DNA from: a virus
Virus record (IMG/VR): IMGVR_UViG_3300007516_000063
Location: 1 to 34,376 of that record
Reading direction: 5' to 3' (one strand)
DNA length: 34,376 bases
In this document: positions 23,405 to 32,194 of the stretch, piece after piece
Position numbering within the stretch: the stretch's first letter is position 1
How the letters are laid out: each line of letters opens with the position of its first letter
Notes under the pieces: model-generated
Databases searched by the model: none
Seen by the model: the letters and a program-made list of their open reading frames with translations, nothing else
Told to the model about the DNA's origin: nothing
Translations under genes and position numbers: made by a program

Positions 23405-23833
23405 GTGACGTTACTAAAAGAAGTTATTCAACCATCCAAAGAGTTTAGTGTAGTTGTAGACGACCTAATAAAAGAGGGTGCGACTATTATTGATTCGGGA
23501 GAGTATGGAACTGCCTTAGAACTTAACAGCAGAGTATTTAAAGTTACAACTGATTCAGAGGAGTTGGAAGATGCACAACAGATTCTACAAATAAAAACAA
23601 AATATTTCGCATATATACACGGCGTTACTGTCTACAGTAGTAACCTAGGAACAATAGAAATGCAACTACTCTACCCCTATACGGGTACCGAAGCTCAAGT
23701 TCCCATAGAAAATATAAAAAAAGAAGCAGAGGAGTTGGGGATATACCCAGACCTAGAAGGCACGGGAGGATCAATTAGAATGCAAAATATAATGCAGGAT
23801 AGTAAGGGTCGAGTAAAGGTAATAGACGTTTAG
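23405..23833 (+). CDS. Minimal protein-kinase-like protein (142 aa)
   Basis: GTG is the only possible start: an in-frame stop lies just upstream and no Met occurs before residue 86. The sequence follows a miniature kinase plan: Gly32-Glu-Tyr-Gly35 loop, strand with Lys46 (Val-Phe-Lys-Val-Thr-Thr-Asp), a helix with Glu53, a hinge-like strand near 84-90, then Asp116, Asn128 (Gln-Asn-Ile-Met) and a terminal Val-Ile-Asp141 where kinases have the DFG Asp. At 142 residues it is about half a normal kinase, so it may be a reduced enzyme or a pseudokinase. Assignment is by pattern only. Confidence 0.5.
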   Translation: MTLLKEVIQPSKEFSVVVDDLIKEGATIIDSGEYGTALELNSRVFKVTTDSEELEDAQQILQIKTKYFAYIHGVTVYSSNLGTIEMQLLYPYTGTEAQVPIENIKKEAEELGIYPDLEGTGGSIRMQNIMQDSKGRVKVIDV

Positions 23834-25671: not shown

Positions 25672-26583
25672 ATGGGAGGAAACGTATTCGGAAACACAGC
25701 TTCAATTAAAAAGGAAGATATACAACCAACATTAAGAGAATTCTTTAAGCAGTTTAAGCAGATTTTTCCAAAAGTCGAAGCACACTTATCCACTATTAAG
25801 ACTTTGGGGTCCGTGGGAAAGAAGGACATATCTGGCGACATTGATCTAGCTTTATCTGAGAAGTCTCTTAAAGACATTGGTGATTGGGGACTAGATGAAG
25901 AACACATAACAGAACTTTTCAATGGATTTAAGAAGAGAGCTAGAACCTCCACAGACATAATGCTTAGGAAGAGGGCAATTATTGTGGGGATAGTTGAAAA
26001 GATTCAACAAGCAGATAAGGAGATTTTAGCTGATATGAAAGGTTCGGGAACAGGTTCACTATTCTTATTATTTCCACAGTATAATTCTAAAGGAGAAACC
26101 GTAGGAGATAATGTACAGATTGACATAAACATAGGGGATATTGATTGGCTTGTATTCTCTTATCATTCAGCAACATATAAAGGAAACGTAAAAGGATTAC
26201 ATAGGACACAGTTACTTGTATCTCTTTTTTCACATAAAGGATATACATTTTCTCACAATTACGGGATTAAAAATAAAGAAACTCAGGAAATTGTAGCAAA
26301 CAAACCAGAACAGGCAGTAAAACTCTTAAACGATTTATATGGCTTAGACTTAGATGGAGAAAGAGTGGGTGACTATTTTAGTATAACGGAAGCTTTAAGA
26401 CTGTCTTTAAATTATGTAGATTTACATGGAGTTTACGATACGTACCTAAAAATACTAGACAGTACGAGGTGCGACGTACCGGAAGACCTACAACAGTATT
26501 GGATTAATAATAGAGAAAGATTAGGACTAAAAGGAAAGTTTCTTCCTGGAGATTCAAATCTCTACAAATATAAAACAGAATAG
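25672..26583 (+). CDS. DNA polymerase beta-type nucleotidyltransferase-like protein (303 aa)
   Basis: The fold signature is Gly46-Ser47, then Asp56-x-Asp58 (Ser-Gly-Asp-Ile-Asp-Leu-Ala) and a third acidic strand with Asp151 (Gln-Ile-Asp-Ile-Asn). Enzymes of this superfamily transfer nucleotides to proteins, RNA or small molecules. The remainder is helical; no other known domain. The stop abuts the ATG of the next gene, whose N-terminal domain has the same motif set, so the pair may be ancient duplicates. Substrate unknown; a modifying enzyme carried in the virion, like T4 Alt in principle, is possible. Confidence 0.7.
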   Translation: MGGNVFGNTASIKKEDIQPTLREFFKQFKQIFPKVEAHLSTIKTLGSVGKKDISGDIDLALSEKSLKDIGDWGLDEEHITELFNGFKKRARTSTDIMLRKRAIIVGIVEKIQQADKEILADMKGSGTGSLFLLFPQYNSKGETVGDNVQIDINIGDIDWLVFSYHSATYKGNVKGLHRTQLLVSLFSHKGYTFSHNYGIKNKETQEIVANKPEQAVKLLNDLYGLDLDGERVGDYFSITEALRLSLNYVDLHGVYDTYLKILDSTRCDVPEDLQQYWINNRERLGLKGKFLPGDSNLYKYKTE

Positions 26584-29322
26584 ATGAGCGGTGTAGCAGG
26601 TGGTAATAGAATAGAAAAACAAGATGTTAGAAATACCTTTAATAGGTATGTGGAAGAAGTATTGTCAACCATCCCCGGGTTTAAAAAAGCTACCTTGTCT
26701 GGTTCAACAAAAAACCTGTCAAAACCGGACTACGGAGATTTAGACTTGGTAATCTGGTTTGAAGGTAACGATAAGAGAGAGGTAAAGCAAAGAATTATTA
26801 CTAAAATAAGCTCCTTACCGCAAGATGTAATTGTCCCGTTTAAATCAGAAAAGAATTTAGGGAAGAGACATTATAACTCAGGGGAACTAATATCAATTCT
26901 TTACCCAGTAGTGGGAAAGGAAAATGAATTTATTCAGATAGACAACATTGTAGCACTATCAGAGGAAGAGTATACGTTTAAGGAATCTTTTCTAGATCTA
27001 CCAGCTGAAAAGCAAGGGCTATTAATAGGGCTTGCAAAAGTAATACTACTGGAAGAAGAGCCCAGAGAGGTTTTTAATAGAATGGGTATTACGGGTTTGC
27101 CAAAAATTAAAAAAGGGGAAGAATTAGAATTTAATCTATCATCTGTAAAACTGACCTTAAGAAAAGTAAAACTCGATAACTTTAAAGAAGTATCAAGAGA
27201 GGAGATTTGGGCTACGGCAAACTGGGGACTTATTAAAATATTGTTTAGAAAGTACAATATAGACGGTTCTTTTGAAGATATGTTAGACAGTGTTTCAAGG
27301 AATCTACAAAACTCAAGATCAAAAAAGAGAGTAGTAGGAGTCTTTAAATCAATGATAACGGTTAAGTCTGGAGAGGTTGGAACACCAAAGGGAACAAATA
27401 AAGAGTCGGCATTGGAGAAAGTATCACAGACACTCGCAGAAGCTTTAGAAGATCAACAAAAAGTAGTTGCCCTGTATGCAGGAGGATTTAAGCCCCCACA
27501 TAAGGCTCACTTTGAAAATGCAAAAATACTATCTGAACAAGCAGATGAACTTATTATTTTTGTAGGTCCAAAAGTTAGAGAAGGTGTAAAAATAACAGCT
27601 GAACAGTCAAAAGCTGTTTGGGAAATATATGCCGAGTACATTGTAACCCCCACTACAGTGAAGATAAGTGCTATCACACCTATCCGAGATGTCTACGAAT
27701 GGGCTGAAGATAATGTAGATATCGTCGATAAGATAATAACAGGTACTATGCCTGATGAAAAAAATAAATTTAGTTATTTTAACAAAAATAAAGAGAAGTA
27801 CGGAAAAGTGGAGATTATAGAACTACCAGTAATAGTGTCAAAAGAGGACGATAAATTCTCAGCAACAGAAATTAGAAAGTCAAAAGAATATATGATTTCA
27901 GGTAAATGGATTCCAACAGTACTATCCAAAGAAGATAAGCAAAAAGTGATTAACATAGTAACACCAAAGGAAGAGCTTTCAATTGAAGGTAGAATGTTAG
28001 AAACAATTGATACTGTACTTGAAAATATAATCAATAAAAAAGAACAGCCGGAACAGAGGTTAGACGAACTAACACCAATAGCATCAACATCAATAATTCC
28101 TTCATCAGAAAGGGAGGAACTAATAGTATTTTACAATGACCTTAAAAAAACAGTAGATACGGAAAAGTATAATCTAGAATTTCAACAGGACAGAATACTG
28201 ATAAGAATAAAGAGACCTGATGAAATAGGTTCAGACTATACACCTTACCAAACAAGAATAGTTGAAGATGTTGAAGAGGGAGAAGCGGATTTTAATTATC
28301 TTCCATATCTTGCATCAATATTGGAGTATATGGTGGAACAGGGGGCAAATATAATGCCTCTACCCGATATAAAAATAAAGAAAGATCCTGAACAGTTAGA
28401 CAGCTTTTTTGGTAAAACAGCATATTATGACCCAAACAGTCAAGAACTCGTACTCTACGTTTTAGATAGGTTACCGAAAGATGTTTGTAGGTCTTTTTGC
28501 CACGAAATGATACACCACATACAGACTATAGAGGGAAGATTGGGGAAAATAACAACAGATAATACAACGGAGGATGATCATCTTCAAAAAATAGAAGACG
28601 AAGCATACCTAATGGGCAATAGGTATTTTAGGAATTGGGAAGATACAGTAAAAAATCAAGACAGTAAAAAGGAAACGTTAATGGAAGGGAGGTACGATGC
28701 AATATCTAACAGAGTTTCTTCACTAGTTTTTCGTGCATGGAAAAAACAGATTGAAGAGGGAGAAGAAGTAGCAACTATCGTAGAAGTAGGTATAGAAGCT
28801 GAGTTCGGAACCTTTACTGTAGAAGCTACATTATTTACAGAAGCCGGTACAGGTAACATGGTAGTACTTGGAACCACAGGTGCCGGGTATAAAAAAGATG
28901 AAGATTTTATCGTTATAGAAATGGAAATAGATCCAACACTTTTTCCTAACCACTGGGAAGAATTATCAATGACACTAAAGGACATTATAAGACATGAAAT
29001 AGAACACCTAACCCAGACTATAGGGAGAGGAGTATCCGTCGCTTCAAAGGGAATGGCGGACCAACAGGAAGAAAGGGATTCAGCAAACCGGAGAGCAAGG
29101 AAAGGAAGTAGAAAGGGGAAAGCAGATTACCTAGTACTTGATAAGGAGGTAGATGCAAATATACAGGGACTTCTTTTTAGGGCTAAAAAACAAAAAGTAC
29201 CTTTTGCTCAAGTAGTAAATAAATATCTAGATTTAGTAGGCCTAACACCAAAAGGGAAACAAGAAGTATTAACAGTATGGCGAAAGAGATTACCAGCATT
29301 GGGAATCAAACGGCCTTTATAG
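26584..29322 (+). CDS. Multi-enzyme protein: nucleotidyltransferase, cytidylyltransferase and two HExxH metalloprotease domains (912 aa)
   Basis: Domains in order: (1) about 10-240, nucleotidyltransferase-like, Gly40-Ser41, Asp52-x-Asp54, Asp120; (2) about 293-450, cytidylyltransferase-like, Tyr-Ala-Gly-Gly-Phe-Lys-Pro-Pro-His306-x2-His309, later Ser-Ala-Thr-Glu-Ile-Arg; (3) about 500-690, HExxH peptidase with His640-Glu641-x2-His644 and Glu671-x2-Ala674; (4) about 702-912, second HExxH peptidase with His804-Glu805-x2-His808 and Glu855-x2-Ala858. Linkers are polar; Leu284-Ala-Glu286/Ala287 and Leu699-Met-Glu701/Gly702 at domain joints resemble gp21 prohead protease sites. No signal peptide. 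It could be a virion-packaged polyprotein; whether it is cut is unknown. ATG directly follows the previous stop. Confidence 0.75.
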   Translation: MSGVAGGNRIEKQDVRNTFNRYVEEVLSTIPGFKKATLSGSTKNLSKPDYGDLDLVIWFEGNDKREVKQRIITKISSLPQDVIVPFKSEKNLGKRHYNSGELISILYPVVGKENEFIQIDNIVALSEEEYTFKESFLDLPAEKQGLLIGLAKVILLEEEPREVFNRMGITGLPKIKKGEELEFNLSSVKLTLRKVKLDNFKEVSREEIWATANWGLIKILFRKYNIDGSFEDMLDSVSRNLQNSRSKKRVVGVFKSMITVKSGEVGTPKGTNKESALEKVSQTLAEALEDQQKVVALYAGGFKPPHKAHFENAKILSEQADELIIFVGPKVREGVKITAEQSKAVWEIYAEYIVTPTTVKISAITPIRDVYEWAEDNVDIVDKIITGTMPDEKNKFSYFNKNKEKYGKVEIIELPVIVSKEDDKFSATEIRKSKEYMISGKWIPTVLSKEDKQKVINIVTPKEELSIEGRMLETIDTVLENIINKKEQPEQRLDELTPIASTSIIPSSEREELIVFYNDLKKTVDTEKYNLEFQQDRILIRIKRPDEIGSDYTPYQTRIVEDVEEGEADFNYLPYLASILEYMVEQGANIMPLPDIKIKKDPEQLDSFFGKTAYYDPNSQELVLYVLDRLPKDVCRSFCHEMIHHIQTIEGRLGKITTDNTTEDDHLQKIEDEAYLMGNRYFRNWEDTVKNQDSKKETLMEGRYDAISNRVSSLVFRAWKKQIEEGEEVATIVEVGIEAEFGTFTVEATLFTEAGTGNMVVLGTTGAGYKKDEDFIVIEMEIDPTLFPNHWEELSMTLKDIIRHEIEHLTQTIGRGVSVASKGMADQQEERDSANRRARKGSRKGKADYLVLDKEVDANIQGLLFRAKKQKVPFAQVVNKYLDLVGLTPKGKQEVLTVWRKRLPALGIKRPL

Positions 29323-29335
29323 TTTATAAAAAGTT

Positions 29336-29911
29336 ATGATAAAAAGTTTAGTAGAACTATTATTAACAGAAGAAGATTTTACACCAAAATATACACTGTA
29401 CTGTGATATGGACGGTGTACTTACGAACTTCGAAGCAAGATTTTTAGAGATGCTTGCCAAAGAAGGTAAAAAGTACTATACGAAGGTAGAGTTAGAAAAT
29501 ATAACAAGACCAAAGCACTTTGAAGCAAGATTTGGTAAAGAAGAGCTTGCAAAATTTGTAGAACAATACGGAGAAGATTTTTGGACAGGGATGCCGTGGA
29601 TGTCAAACGGAAAACAACTATGGGACTCTATAGCACCTTATCAACCGAAAATACTGTCTTCTCCCTTTGATAATAATTCTTCAAGATTAGGAAAAAGAAT
29701 GTGGGTAAGACAGAACCTATCCCCCTCTCCTTCAGAAATAATCTTTAGAAAATCTGAAGAGAAGCAGGAGTTTTCAAATAGTACAAGTATCCTAATAGAT
29801 GATAAGCCATCTAACATTTTAGAGTGGAGAGCAAAAGGAGGAATAGCATTAGAGTGTAAAGACGGGGAAGTACATTCAATCATAGAGCAATTAAAAAAAT
29901 ACTACGTATAA
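29336..29911 (+). CDS. HAD-superfamily phosphatase, 5'-nucleotidase-like (191 aa)
   Basis: HAD motifs: Asp24-Met-Asp26-Gly-Val (nucleophile and acid/base), Leu-Ser-Ser-Pro (about 104-107), a Lys in Glu-Glu-Lys-Gln (about 141-144) and Ile-Asp-Asp-Lys-Pro-Ser-Asn (about 157-164). The layout resembles 5'-deoxynucleotidases. An extra N-terminal segment (Leu-Val-Glu-Leu-Leu-Leu-Thr-Glu, residues 5-12) precedes the fold and ends in Leu-x-Glu, like other candidate capsid-targeting tags here. Leader AAAAAGTTATG; 13 nt after the 912-residue protein. Substrate unproven. Confidence 0.82.
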   Translation: MIKSLVELLLTEEDFTPKYTLYCDMDGVLTNFEARFLEMLAKEGKKYYTKVELENITRPKHFEARFGKEELAKFVEQYGEDFWTGMPWMSNGKQLWDSIAPYQPKILSSPFDNNSSRLGKRMWVRQNLSPSPSEIIFRKSEEKQEFSNSTSILIDDKPSNILEWRAKGGIALECKDGEVHSIIEQLKKYYV

Positions 29912-30685: not shown

Positions 30686-32194
30686 ATGAAACAATTAAAG
30701 AAACGTATTCAAGAATCTGGAGAAAAAACAGCTTTTATTACAACTTCCGACGGAACTAGTAAAACCCTTGATTATAAATCAGATAGTGAATTATCAGCAC
30801 TAAAGGACAATAGCGATATCAAGAAAATTGAAACAGGTGACGGAAAGAAACTAAAGGAAGAGGTAAGAAAGTATGCTTCTGAAGAATCTGAAGCAGTAGC
30901 TAAAAAGGTAGTAAAATCACTACTAAAAGTAATGAGAGCCGAGGGTGATGAGGTTGTCTCTATGAAACAGTCGAATGTAGCGGTTAACGCTTTTAACATA
31001 CGGGTAATATATGGTAACGATAGGGGAGATGATGTATTTAAGTTTAAACTATACCCAGAAACTAAAGATATAAAAATGGAATCCCCAGAGGGAAAGGAGG
31101 AAAGACTGTCAGACTTCCTAGTAACACAGGGAAATACAGTTAGTATTCCTACACCAGAACTAGAACAGAATCTTGCAACAATATTAAAAAAATACGTAAC
31201 CGAACCAACTGATCAAGAATATGACGATCAAGCAGAAATGGAACCTGAACATGACGAATCTCAAGTAGGGAAGTACATATCAGAAAGTGGTGGAGATATA
31301 AACGAACCGATTGCAGTAAGATTAAGAGCTGATAAGATGTTTAGAAAACAGCATGATGATTTTGACAGACAGCAAGCAAAGGACACACCAAAACCCTACT
31401 CACCCCGTATTATTAAAAATAAGGAAGCTAAGATTAGGGTTTTAGAAAAAGAAAAGAAAAGACTTGAGATGGAAATGGAATCCGAAGCTGGATTAGAGGA
31501 TATGGGAGGTTTATCGTATGATGAGTTGGGAAATAAATATGCAGACGATATGATGCGAGTTGATTACGCATTAGATAAACTAAGAGGATTATCAGGAATG
31601 TATAACACTACTTACAAACCGGGAGAAGATATAGTAGAGAGAAAAATAAAAGGATCAGAGCTGAAACAACTAATGTTAGAAGCATATGCAGAGGTATTGG
31701 TAGAAACTCCCGAAATACCTGTTCTTAAAACATCCACTCAAGAGATACTTGGGAAGTTCCCAACAGTTAAGAAAACACTAGAAAAACTTCTTACATCAGA
31801 GTTTGGTGAGTTTGTTCAAGATGTTAAGTGGGTTGCACCTAAGCCATCAACTTTTACGGTTGTACTAAAAAATGGACAAACATTTAACTTAAAATGGTTA
31901 GGTAAAGACTTTAATGCACAGATAGGAGGTAAGAACTATTACTTAGGAACCGTATCAACATATCAACAAGCTTTAGATAAACTTAACGATACACTTATAA
32001 ACGGACCAATTGATACGAATCAAGAACAACCAGACAGTGAATTAGGAGGCGAACAGTTTGGTGATCCTGCAGCACCAACAGGTGGATTAGCACCAGAATT
32101 GACACCGGAAGCAGACCCATTCGCAGCAGAAGCTCCTTCAACAGGGGAAGAAGAAACAACAGACGCAACAGAAGAAACACCAAAAGGGCTATAA
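30686..32194 (+). CDS. Unknown acidic protein, possible virion/scaffold component (502 aa)
   Basis: Residues 1-170 form a Lys/Glu-rich alpha/beta part; 170-290 is acidic and helical with a long coiled-coil-like stretch (about 245-270); residues 325-340 (Ser-Glu-Leu-Lys-Gln-Leu-Met-Leu-Glu332-Ala333) look like an internal copy of the targeting-peptide pattern; 345-430 is a small alpha/beta domain; from 435 the tail is Glu/Pro/Thr/Ala-rich and disordered. No enzyme motif. Charge and layout fit a head core, scaffold or packaged protein, but this is inference. Confidence 0.6.
   Translation: MKQLKKRIQESGEKTAFITTSDGTSKTLDYKSDSELSALKDNSDIKKIETGDGKKLKEEVRKYASEESEAVAKKVVKSLLKVMRAEGDEVVSMKQSNVAVNAFNIRVIYGNDRGDDVFKFKLYPETKDIKMESPEGKEERLSDFLVTQGNTVSIPTPELEQNLATILKKYVTEPTDQEYDDQAEMEPEHDESQVGKYISESGGDINEPIAVRLRADKMFRKQHDDFDRQQAKDTPKPYSPRIIKNKEAKIRVLEKEKKRLEMEMESEAGLEDMGGLSYDELGNKYADDMMRVDYALDKLRGLSGMYNTTYKPGEDIVERKIKGSELKQLMLEAYAEVLVETPEIPVLKTSTQEILGKFPTVKKTLEKLLTSEFGEFVQDVKWVAPKPSTFTVVLKNGQTFNLKWLGKDFNAQIGGKNYYLGTVSTYQQALDKLNDTLINGPIDTNQEQPDSELGGEQFGDPAAPTGGLAPELTPEADPFAAEAPSTGEEETTDATEETPKGL

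Follow-up and report, generated by a model that had tools for sequence, protein, structure and literature searches.

The window analysed here, a 34,376-base fragment, comes from a virus of aquatic bacteria, a T4-like phage with Flavobacterium phage immuto_2-6A among its relatives. On its plus strand, an open reading frame with an ATG start (26584..29322) encodes a chain of 912 amino acids that begins MSGVAGGNRI, without an N-terminal capsid-targeting leader, and in which, as a preliminary description of this DNA had reported, a single frame joins the motif sets of four domains, here termed NT, CT, Z1 and Z2. The chain is 58.6% identical over its entire length to immuto26A_183 (immuto gp183), whose annotation is NMN adenylyltransferase (nicotinamide mononucleotide adenylyltransferase), and searches of the 912-aa protein against Pfam, PHROGs and NCBIfam gave no match above cut-off. 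In INPHARED, the close relatives were immuto phages and none besides, so that the virion data considered below are taken from distant phages. The gene adjoins primase, exonuclease and 5'-nucleotidase genes; an upstream gene on the same strand (25672..26583; 303 aa, 213/302 identical to immuto gp182) abuts its start, and a gene for NT5C, a 5'(3')-deoxyribonucleotidase (29336..29911, plus strand; PHROG 2643, E 4e-23), is found downstream.

The domains were delimited by a combination of motif, profile and structural evidence. NT (residues 1-286; 26584..27441, plus strand) was assigned as a pol-beta-fold nucleotidyltransferase from Foldseek and secondary structure: the best Foldseek matches of its model are the DNA polymerases lambda/beta (E about 4e-5), and its motifs of the GS/DxD type, G40-S41 and D52-x-D54, are invariant in homologues. 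A PDB sequence-profile search with NT returned nothing meaningful; judged by its GS...DxD motif and its modelled fold, the domain is a member of the pol-beta superfamily. According to the predicted secondary structure, its terminal helix (268-286) runs into the first of the sites discussed below. CT (residues 287 to about 495; 27442..28068, plus strand), assigned by profile match, comprises an NMNAT-like cytidylyltransferase and a C-terminal linker. Its family profile matches NMN adenylyltransferase 1f9a (E 1e-5), matches to NCBIfam NMNAT models are weak, and the score against Pfam CTP_transf_like is 18.5 bits, under the 21-bit cut-off. The motif G-F-K-P-P-H-x2-H reads KPPHKAH in the window chain and HRGH or HKGH in relatives, and on this HxGH-type motif together with the profile similarity CT is a predicted member of the NMNAT/nucleotidyltransferase superfamily.

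The two remaining domains are predicted zincin-like peptidases. Z1 (residues 496-701; 28069..28686, plus strand), assigned by motif, carries HEMIHH at residues 640-645 (28501..28518, plus strand) followed by E671-x2-A674, both invariant among relatives, and found no match in a PDB sequence-profile search. A survey of cellular relatives of Z1 yielded 7 stretches, all on metagenome-assembled contigs that are possibly phage DNA, and was set aside as uninformative. Z2 (residues 702-912; 28687..29319, plus strand), assigned by motif and an AlphaFold model, carries HEIEH at residues 804-808 (28993..29007, plus strand) followed by E855-x2-A858, invariant in homologues; in A6, R-H-E-x-E-H and K-E are invariant. 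The Z2 model has a pLDDT of 85, and its fold starts at G702 with a pLDDT of about 92. The PDB sequence-profile search with Z2 gave nothing meaningful, Foldseek found no fold match in PDB with E<0.001, and in BFVD it found unnamed phage proteins only. The assignment of Z2 as a zincin, made on its HExxH motif and without a PDB match, is correspondingly provisional.

We next consider the boundaries between these domains, where each joint holds an [LI]xE tripeptide, the putative cut being marked here by a slash. Joint 1, between NT and CT, contains LAE/A (residues 284-287; 27433..27444, plus strand; pLDDT<50 at 286-292), and joint 3, between Z1 and Z2, contains LME/G (residues 699-702; 28678..28689, plus strand; pLDDT<50 at 686-702), both exactly where the preliminary description had placed them. 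Joint 2, between CT and Z1, which that description did not list, contains LDE/L (residues 493-496; 28060..28071, plus strand; pLDDT<50 at 463-503), with an off-consensus Leu at P1' where most relatives have KE/GSSGTP. The three low-confidence stretches of the model, 286-292, 463-503 and 686-702, coincide with the three joints. A further strict site, IEE/G (residues 723-726; 28750..28761, plus strand), follows the first helix of Z2, is not conserved and is probably a chance match. Both this site within Z2 and the P1' Leu of joint 2 count against the interpretation developed below. The preliminary description had cautioned that [LI]-x-Glu is common by chance, and the count bears this out: the 912 residues contain three strict [LI]xE[AGS] sites (at 284, 699 and 723), and the immuto phage proteome contains 2.4 per 1000 aa. 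We therefore rejected the site count as evidence, as it equals background, and considered position and conservation only. The number of sites is at chance level; their placement is not. Two of the three strict sites land in joints predicted to be unfolded, for which a rough estimate of chance is 0.002, and the P1' residue of joint 3, residue 702, is the first of the Z2 fold. The two sites first described thus lie in joints with pLDDT<50 and not inside folded domains, a location that had been named as grounds for abandoning the idea of processing.

To evaluate conservation, viral contigs were scanned for matches to the complete chain and to profiles made for each domain, giving 189 distinct homologous ORFs and 125 non-redundant representatives. 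Their architectures include NT-CT-Z1-Z2, NT-CT-Z1, NT-CT, CT-Z1-Z2, CT-Z1 and CT-Z2-Z1 as well as single-domain genes. The relatives share ancestry and are statistically dependent, so the following joint frequencies are descriptive: the strict motif [LI]xE[AGS] is present at 72%, 65% and 48% of CT, Z2 and Z1 joints, respectively, compared with 6%, 5% and 8% in the remainder of these proteins and 13%, 3% and 8% in a shuffled control, an enrichment of about 12-, 13- and 6-fold over that remainder. With the same reservation, [LI]xE ranks first among 160 spaced residue-pair classes at the joints of the 125 relatives (78% vs 21% elsewhere).

Individual joints differ in how the motif is retained. 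At the NT/CT joint, [LIVF]xE is present in 36/36 distinct relatives at a variable distance from the CT fold, and in A5 the joint 1 residue E286 is invariant and L284 and A287 are each at least 90% conserved. Before Z2, the P1 Glu is kept in 39/39 and a P3 Leu, Met or Ile in 37/39, and P2 and P4 vary; fixed P1 and P3 with a free P2 suggest the pattern of a protease site. The usual form before Z1 is xxE/GSSGTP. The joints of immuto gp183 read QTLAE/A, VVKE/G and VMAE/G. Joint 3 of the immuto clade, VMAE/G, has Met at P3, which falls outside the strict T4 motif and counts against this assignment. Overall, the position of the sites is kept across diverged relatives, contrary to the lack of conservation that had been put forward as a second ground for dismissal. 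A stronger argument than the frequencies comes from the company the motif keeps: it stays with its domain whether that domain is preceded by another domain, by a site-flanked zinc-ribbon module or by the start of the gene. The zinc-ribbon module, CDNCGWSWxIxDGGDDLYxCHKCGHDN, lies between two [LI]xE sites in the CT-Z1-Z2 chains L100, L095, L050, L086 and L058. We also noted that the segment KDPFGLNQFAREL recurs before some sites in other chains, e.g. L075 and L080, and is possibly an embedded targeting helix. Separately, the 1148-aa chain of L070 is an order-swapped array, CT-Z2-Z1-unknown domain-NT5C, in a single polypeptide.

The preliminary description had proposed comparing homologues to see whether the domains occur as separate genes. 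They do, and some of these genes carry T4-type leaders that end at the equivalent site. Separate CT or Z2 genes can start in this way, as with MKTFKQFVTE/AERTG in L336 and MKYIKQFENFLINE/GRYD in L103, and chains that begin with CT have the leaders MNSLVKSLIQPILE/A and MNKLTQYLVDSILNE/G. For comparison, T4 IPIII starts MKTYQEFIAE/A and T4 IPI starts MKTFKEF...TITE/A, and by this likeness the leaders of the separate CT and Z2 genes appear to resemble T4 capsid-targeting sequences, ending at a site of the joint type. Separate NT5C genes in relatives are usually leader-bearing with LxE as well (e.g. MPNLLDLYE/A and MKSIKELIGE/G), the NT5C gene of the window starts with a leader-like segment, MIKSLVELLLTE/E, and in four relatives (L052, L070, L084 and L109) NT5C is fused to the C-terminus of the polyprotein. 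Leaders are limited to relatives beginning with CT or Z2 and to the NT5C genes. Marine CT-Z1 chains start at CT itself (MATALYPG), and the separate Z2 genes of L022 and L059 are likewise leaderless; the domains can therefore work without a leader, which, like the leaderless start of the NT-first chain, counts against the interpretation developed below.

We then asked whether a matching protease accompanies these genes. A gp21-family protease (peptidase S77) and gp23 are encoded in 19/19 long relative genomes tested, immuto included. The gp23 propeptide boundary of the long relatives keeps [LI]xE with a variable P1' (QIVSE/A, QIVAE/G, QIIKE/A), and their prohead protease, gp201 in immuto, has LLTE/S near its start and SLNE/G near its end. 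In immuto, an N-terminal [LI]xE[AGS] occurs in 11/22 genes of the stretch 182-205, from gp182 to the capsid gene, vs 10/195 others (Fisher 1.5e-7). The 34-kb window fragment has no head module, so the evidence for the protease comes from the relatives, and that of the window phage itself is not seen.

Taken together, a conserved cut-type sequence at each domain join suggests the packaging, cutting and joint delivery of the enzymes, and we consider it probable that the chain is a modular internal-head polyprotein, processed by the prohead protease, packaged and delivered with the DNA, although its packaging, cleavage, injection and targets are what we infer from the patterns above. The chain would be a late product that the prohead core takes up, possibly by way of helices preceding each site. 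A gp21-type (peptidase S77) protease would then cut after [LI]xE at the three joints and release four separately folding enzymes, NT, CT, Z1 and Z2, which would remain beside the DNA in the head and pass with it into the next host. Inside the host, the enzymes would act on nucleotides or NAD and on proteins. Defences that deplete NAD and phage restoration of NAD both exist, and a plausible role for CT would be to restore or alter NAD early in infection.

Such a chain would combine features of two known groups. T4 gp21 cuts after L/I-x-E, core proteins are cut at several sites, and ten N-terminal residues of IPIII are enough to direct a protein to the head (PMC9026906). With the gp21-cut T4 internal head proteins (IPI, IPII, IPIII, Alt), the present family shares the L/I-x-E motif, leaders in single-domain and CT-first relatives, a gp21-family protease and gp23 in relatives, and diverse cargo behind a conserved signal. 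The T4 proteins, however, are single cargoes with terminal cuts and carry a capsid-targeting sequence, whereas here one chain holds several enzymes, its sites lie at the joints between them and the NT-first form lacks an N-terminal leader, for which reason we do not file it as a simple member of the T4 internal-protein type. Polyvalent proteins (Iyer et al. 2017, PMC5512222), such as P1 DdrB and the N4 virion RNA polymerase, likewise unite unrelated enzymatic domains in one chain, with prominent HExxH peptidase domains and proposed delivery with the DNA (PMC5512222). In keeping with that class, which is defined by at least two domains of disparate activity, the chain contains NT, CT, Z1 and Z2; as for the zincin component, the HExxH and the downstream Glu are invariant, with no PDB sequence match for Z1 and neither a sequence nor a fold match for Z2. 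Polyvalent proteins are proposed to be separated by zincins within the chain or by an assemblin-like peptidase at the C-terminus (PMC5512222), while the sites here match a separate prohead protease; pol-beta nucleotidyltransferases within polyvalent proteins have been reported from conjugative elements only (PMC5512222), whereas this one is in a phage. Judged on its domains and sites, the chain would thus be T4 internal protein and polyvalent protein in its working, without agreeing with the full definition of either.

A third comparison concerns phiKZ and SPN3US, in which a gp21-related protease cuts many head and ejected proteins after x-x-Glu, sometimes repeatedly per protein (PMC7411985, PMC10052503). 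The known multiple cuts of SPN3US trim propeptides; these papers describe no case in which a single chain yields several enzymes (PMC7411985, PMC10052503), and the literature searched gave no report of a prohead protease used to separate enzymes in that way. The preliminary description's claim that no system of this form is known holds for that separation; for the rest it was too broad, as polyvalent proteins (PMC5512222) and virion cytidylyltransferases (PMC3037559, PMC9602691, PMC10665884) are known.

The main rival to this account is zincin self-processing in the polyvalent style, in which the chain is a fusion that is active in the infected cell or injected whole, any separation is the work of the HExxH domains it contains, and gene fusion has left the [LI]xE motifs behind as linker remnants. 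Self-cutting by zincins has been proposed for polyvalent proteins (PMC5512222), the chain has two HExxH domains and some homologues are without leaders. Linker remnants, however, would not hold P3 and P1 constant in a linker that varies in length and at P2 and P4, and the single-domain genes of L336, L103 and L089 and the NT5C genes end T4-like leaders with the same tripeptide where no fusion is involved. Since the CT-Z1 forms with one HExxH domain and the NT-CT forms with none also keep the sites, we regard this alternative as unlikely.

Less probable again is an ordinary multifunctional nucleotide/NAD enzyme of early or mid infection that is left unpackaged and whose fused domains act as a unit. 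While the proximity of primase, exonuclease and 5'-nucleotidase genes, the resemblance of CT to NMNAT and the database name nicotinamide mononucleotide adenylyltransferase would fit such an enzyme, domains that swap order and split off freely, joints predicted to be unstructured and the clustering of [LI]xE leaders in the region from the polyprotein gene up to the capsid gene all argue against it. We give very little credence to the notion that LxEG is conserved because it caps the Z2 (and CT) fold structurally and not because a protease cuts there: the distance from site to fold is constant for Z2, always 4 residues, but varies between 10 and 13 residues for CT, the separate Z2 proteins of L022 and L059 do without the motif, and the same motif precedes four unrelated folds (CT, Z1, Z2 and NT5C) and stands at the processing positions of gp23 and the protease.

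Virion data from other phages bear on the preferred reading, a prohead-processed head cargo. No virion proteomics for the window phage or immuto were found in the literature searched. A cyanophage cytidylyltransferase (cluster T4-GC190) was detected in S-SM1 particles (PMC3037559), and NMNAT-like proteins in particles of S-SCSM1 (PMC9602691) and of S-CREM2 and others (PMC10665884); the authors allow purification carry-over as a source of such detection. The S-SM1 and S-SCSM1 cytidylyltransferases start MKKFSAFLNE/A and MKSFLQFLKE/A. The T4-GC190 proteins (S-SM1, S-SCSM1, P-SSM2) thus share with the present family a nucleotidyltransferase-superfamily domain behind an FLxE/A leader and, in S-SM1 and S-SCSM1, occurrence in virions, a comparison tempered by their only distant relationship to the window CT and by their single enzyme domain, as opposed to the four-enzyme array here.

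More broadly, we see an even chance that true polyproteins serve as head cargo in T4-like phages of aquatic bacteria, with [LI]xE at every joint, a fixed enzyme ratio, separation by the prohead protease and arrays that evolve by cassette swapping between sites. If the proposal is true, prohead proteases mature multi-enzyme cargo besides capsids, a phage counterpart of viral polyproteins, and a sequence rule, [LI]xE where domains join or a leader ends, would predict which of the many unknown proteins of T4-like aquatic phages are injected; the proposal would also help to explain the repeated finding of NMNAT-like enzymes in cyanophage particles. In immuto, a cultured phage with its host, LMO8, is at hand.

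Several other genes drew attention during the analysis. The product of the abutting upstream gene (25672-26583; starts MGGNVF...) has, by eye, an NTase-like GS/GDID motif. The gene at 30686-32194 (immuto gp192) starts MKQLKKRIQE/S and is a second candidate of the same kind; immuto gp192 has 841 aa vs 502 aa in the window, with extra stretches near VNE/G and LKE/S, and stretches of the gp192-like gene seem to come and go close to [LI]xE sites. The 142-aa product of 23405-23833 (immuto gp178), for which we found no Pfam or PHROG match, has by eye the look of a miniature kinase: one segment resembles a glycine-rich loop, and the ending is of the form NIM...GxxKVIDV; kinase-like proteins have been reported in cyanophage virions (PMC10665884). 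In Synechococcus phage S-SRM01, a gene at L370:5832-7490, beside that of a leader-bearing cytidyltransferase, encodes a protein with several [LI]xE sites (MKKHIAE/D, YMKE/S and VKE/G) that may be another processed head protein.
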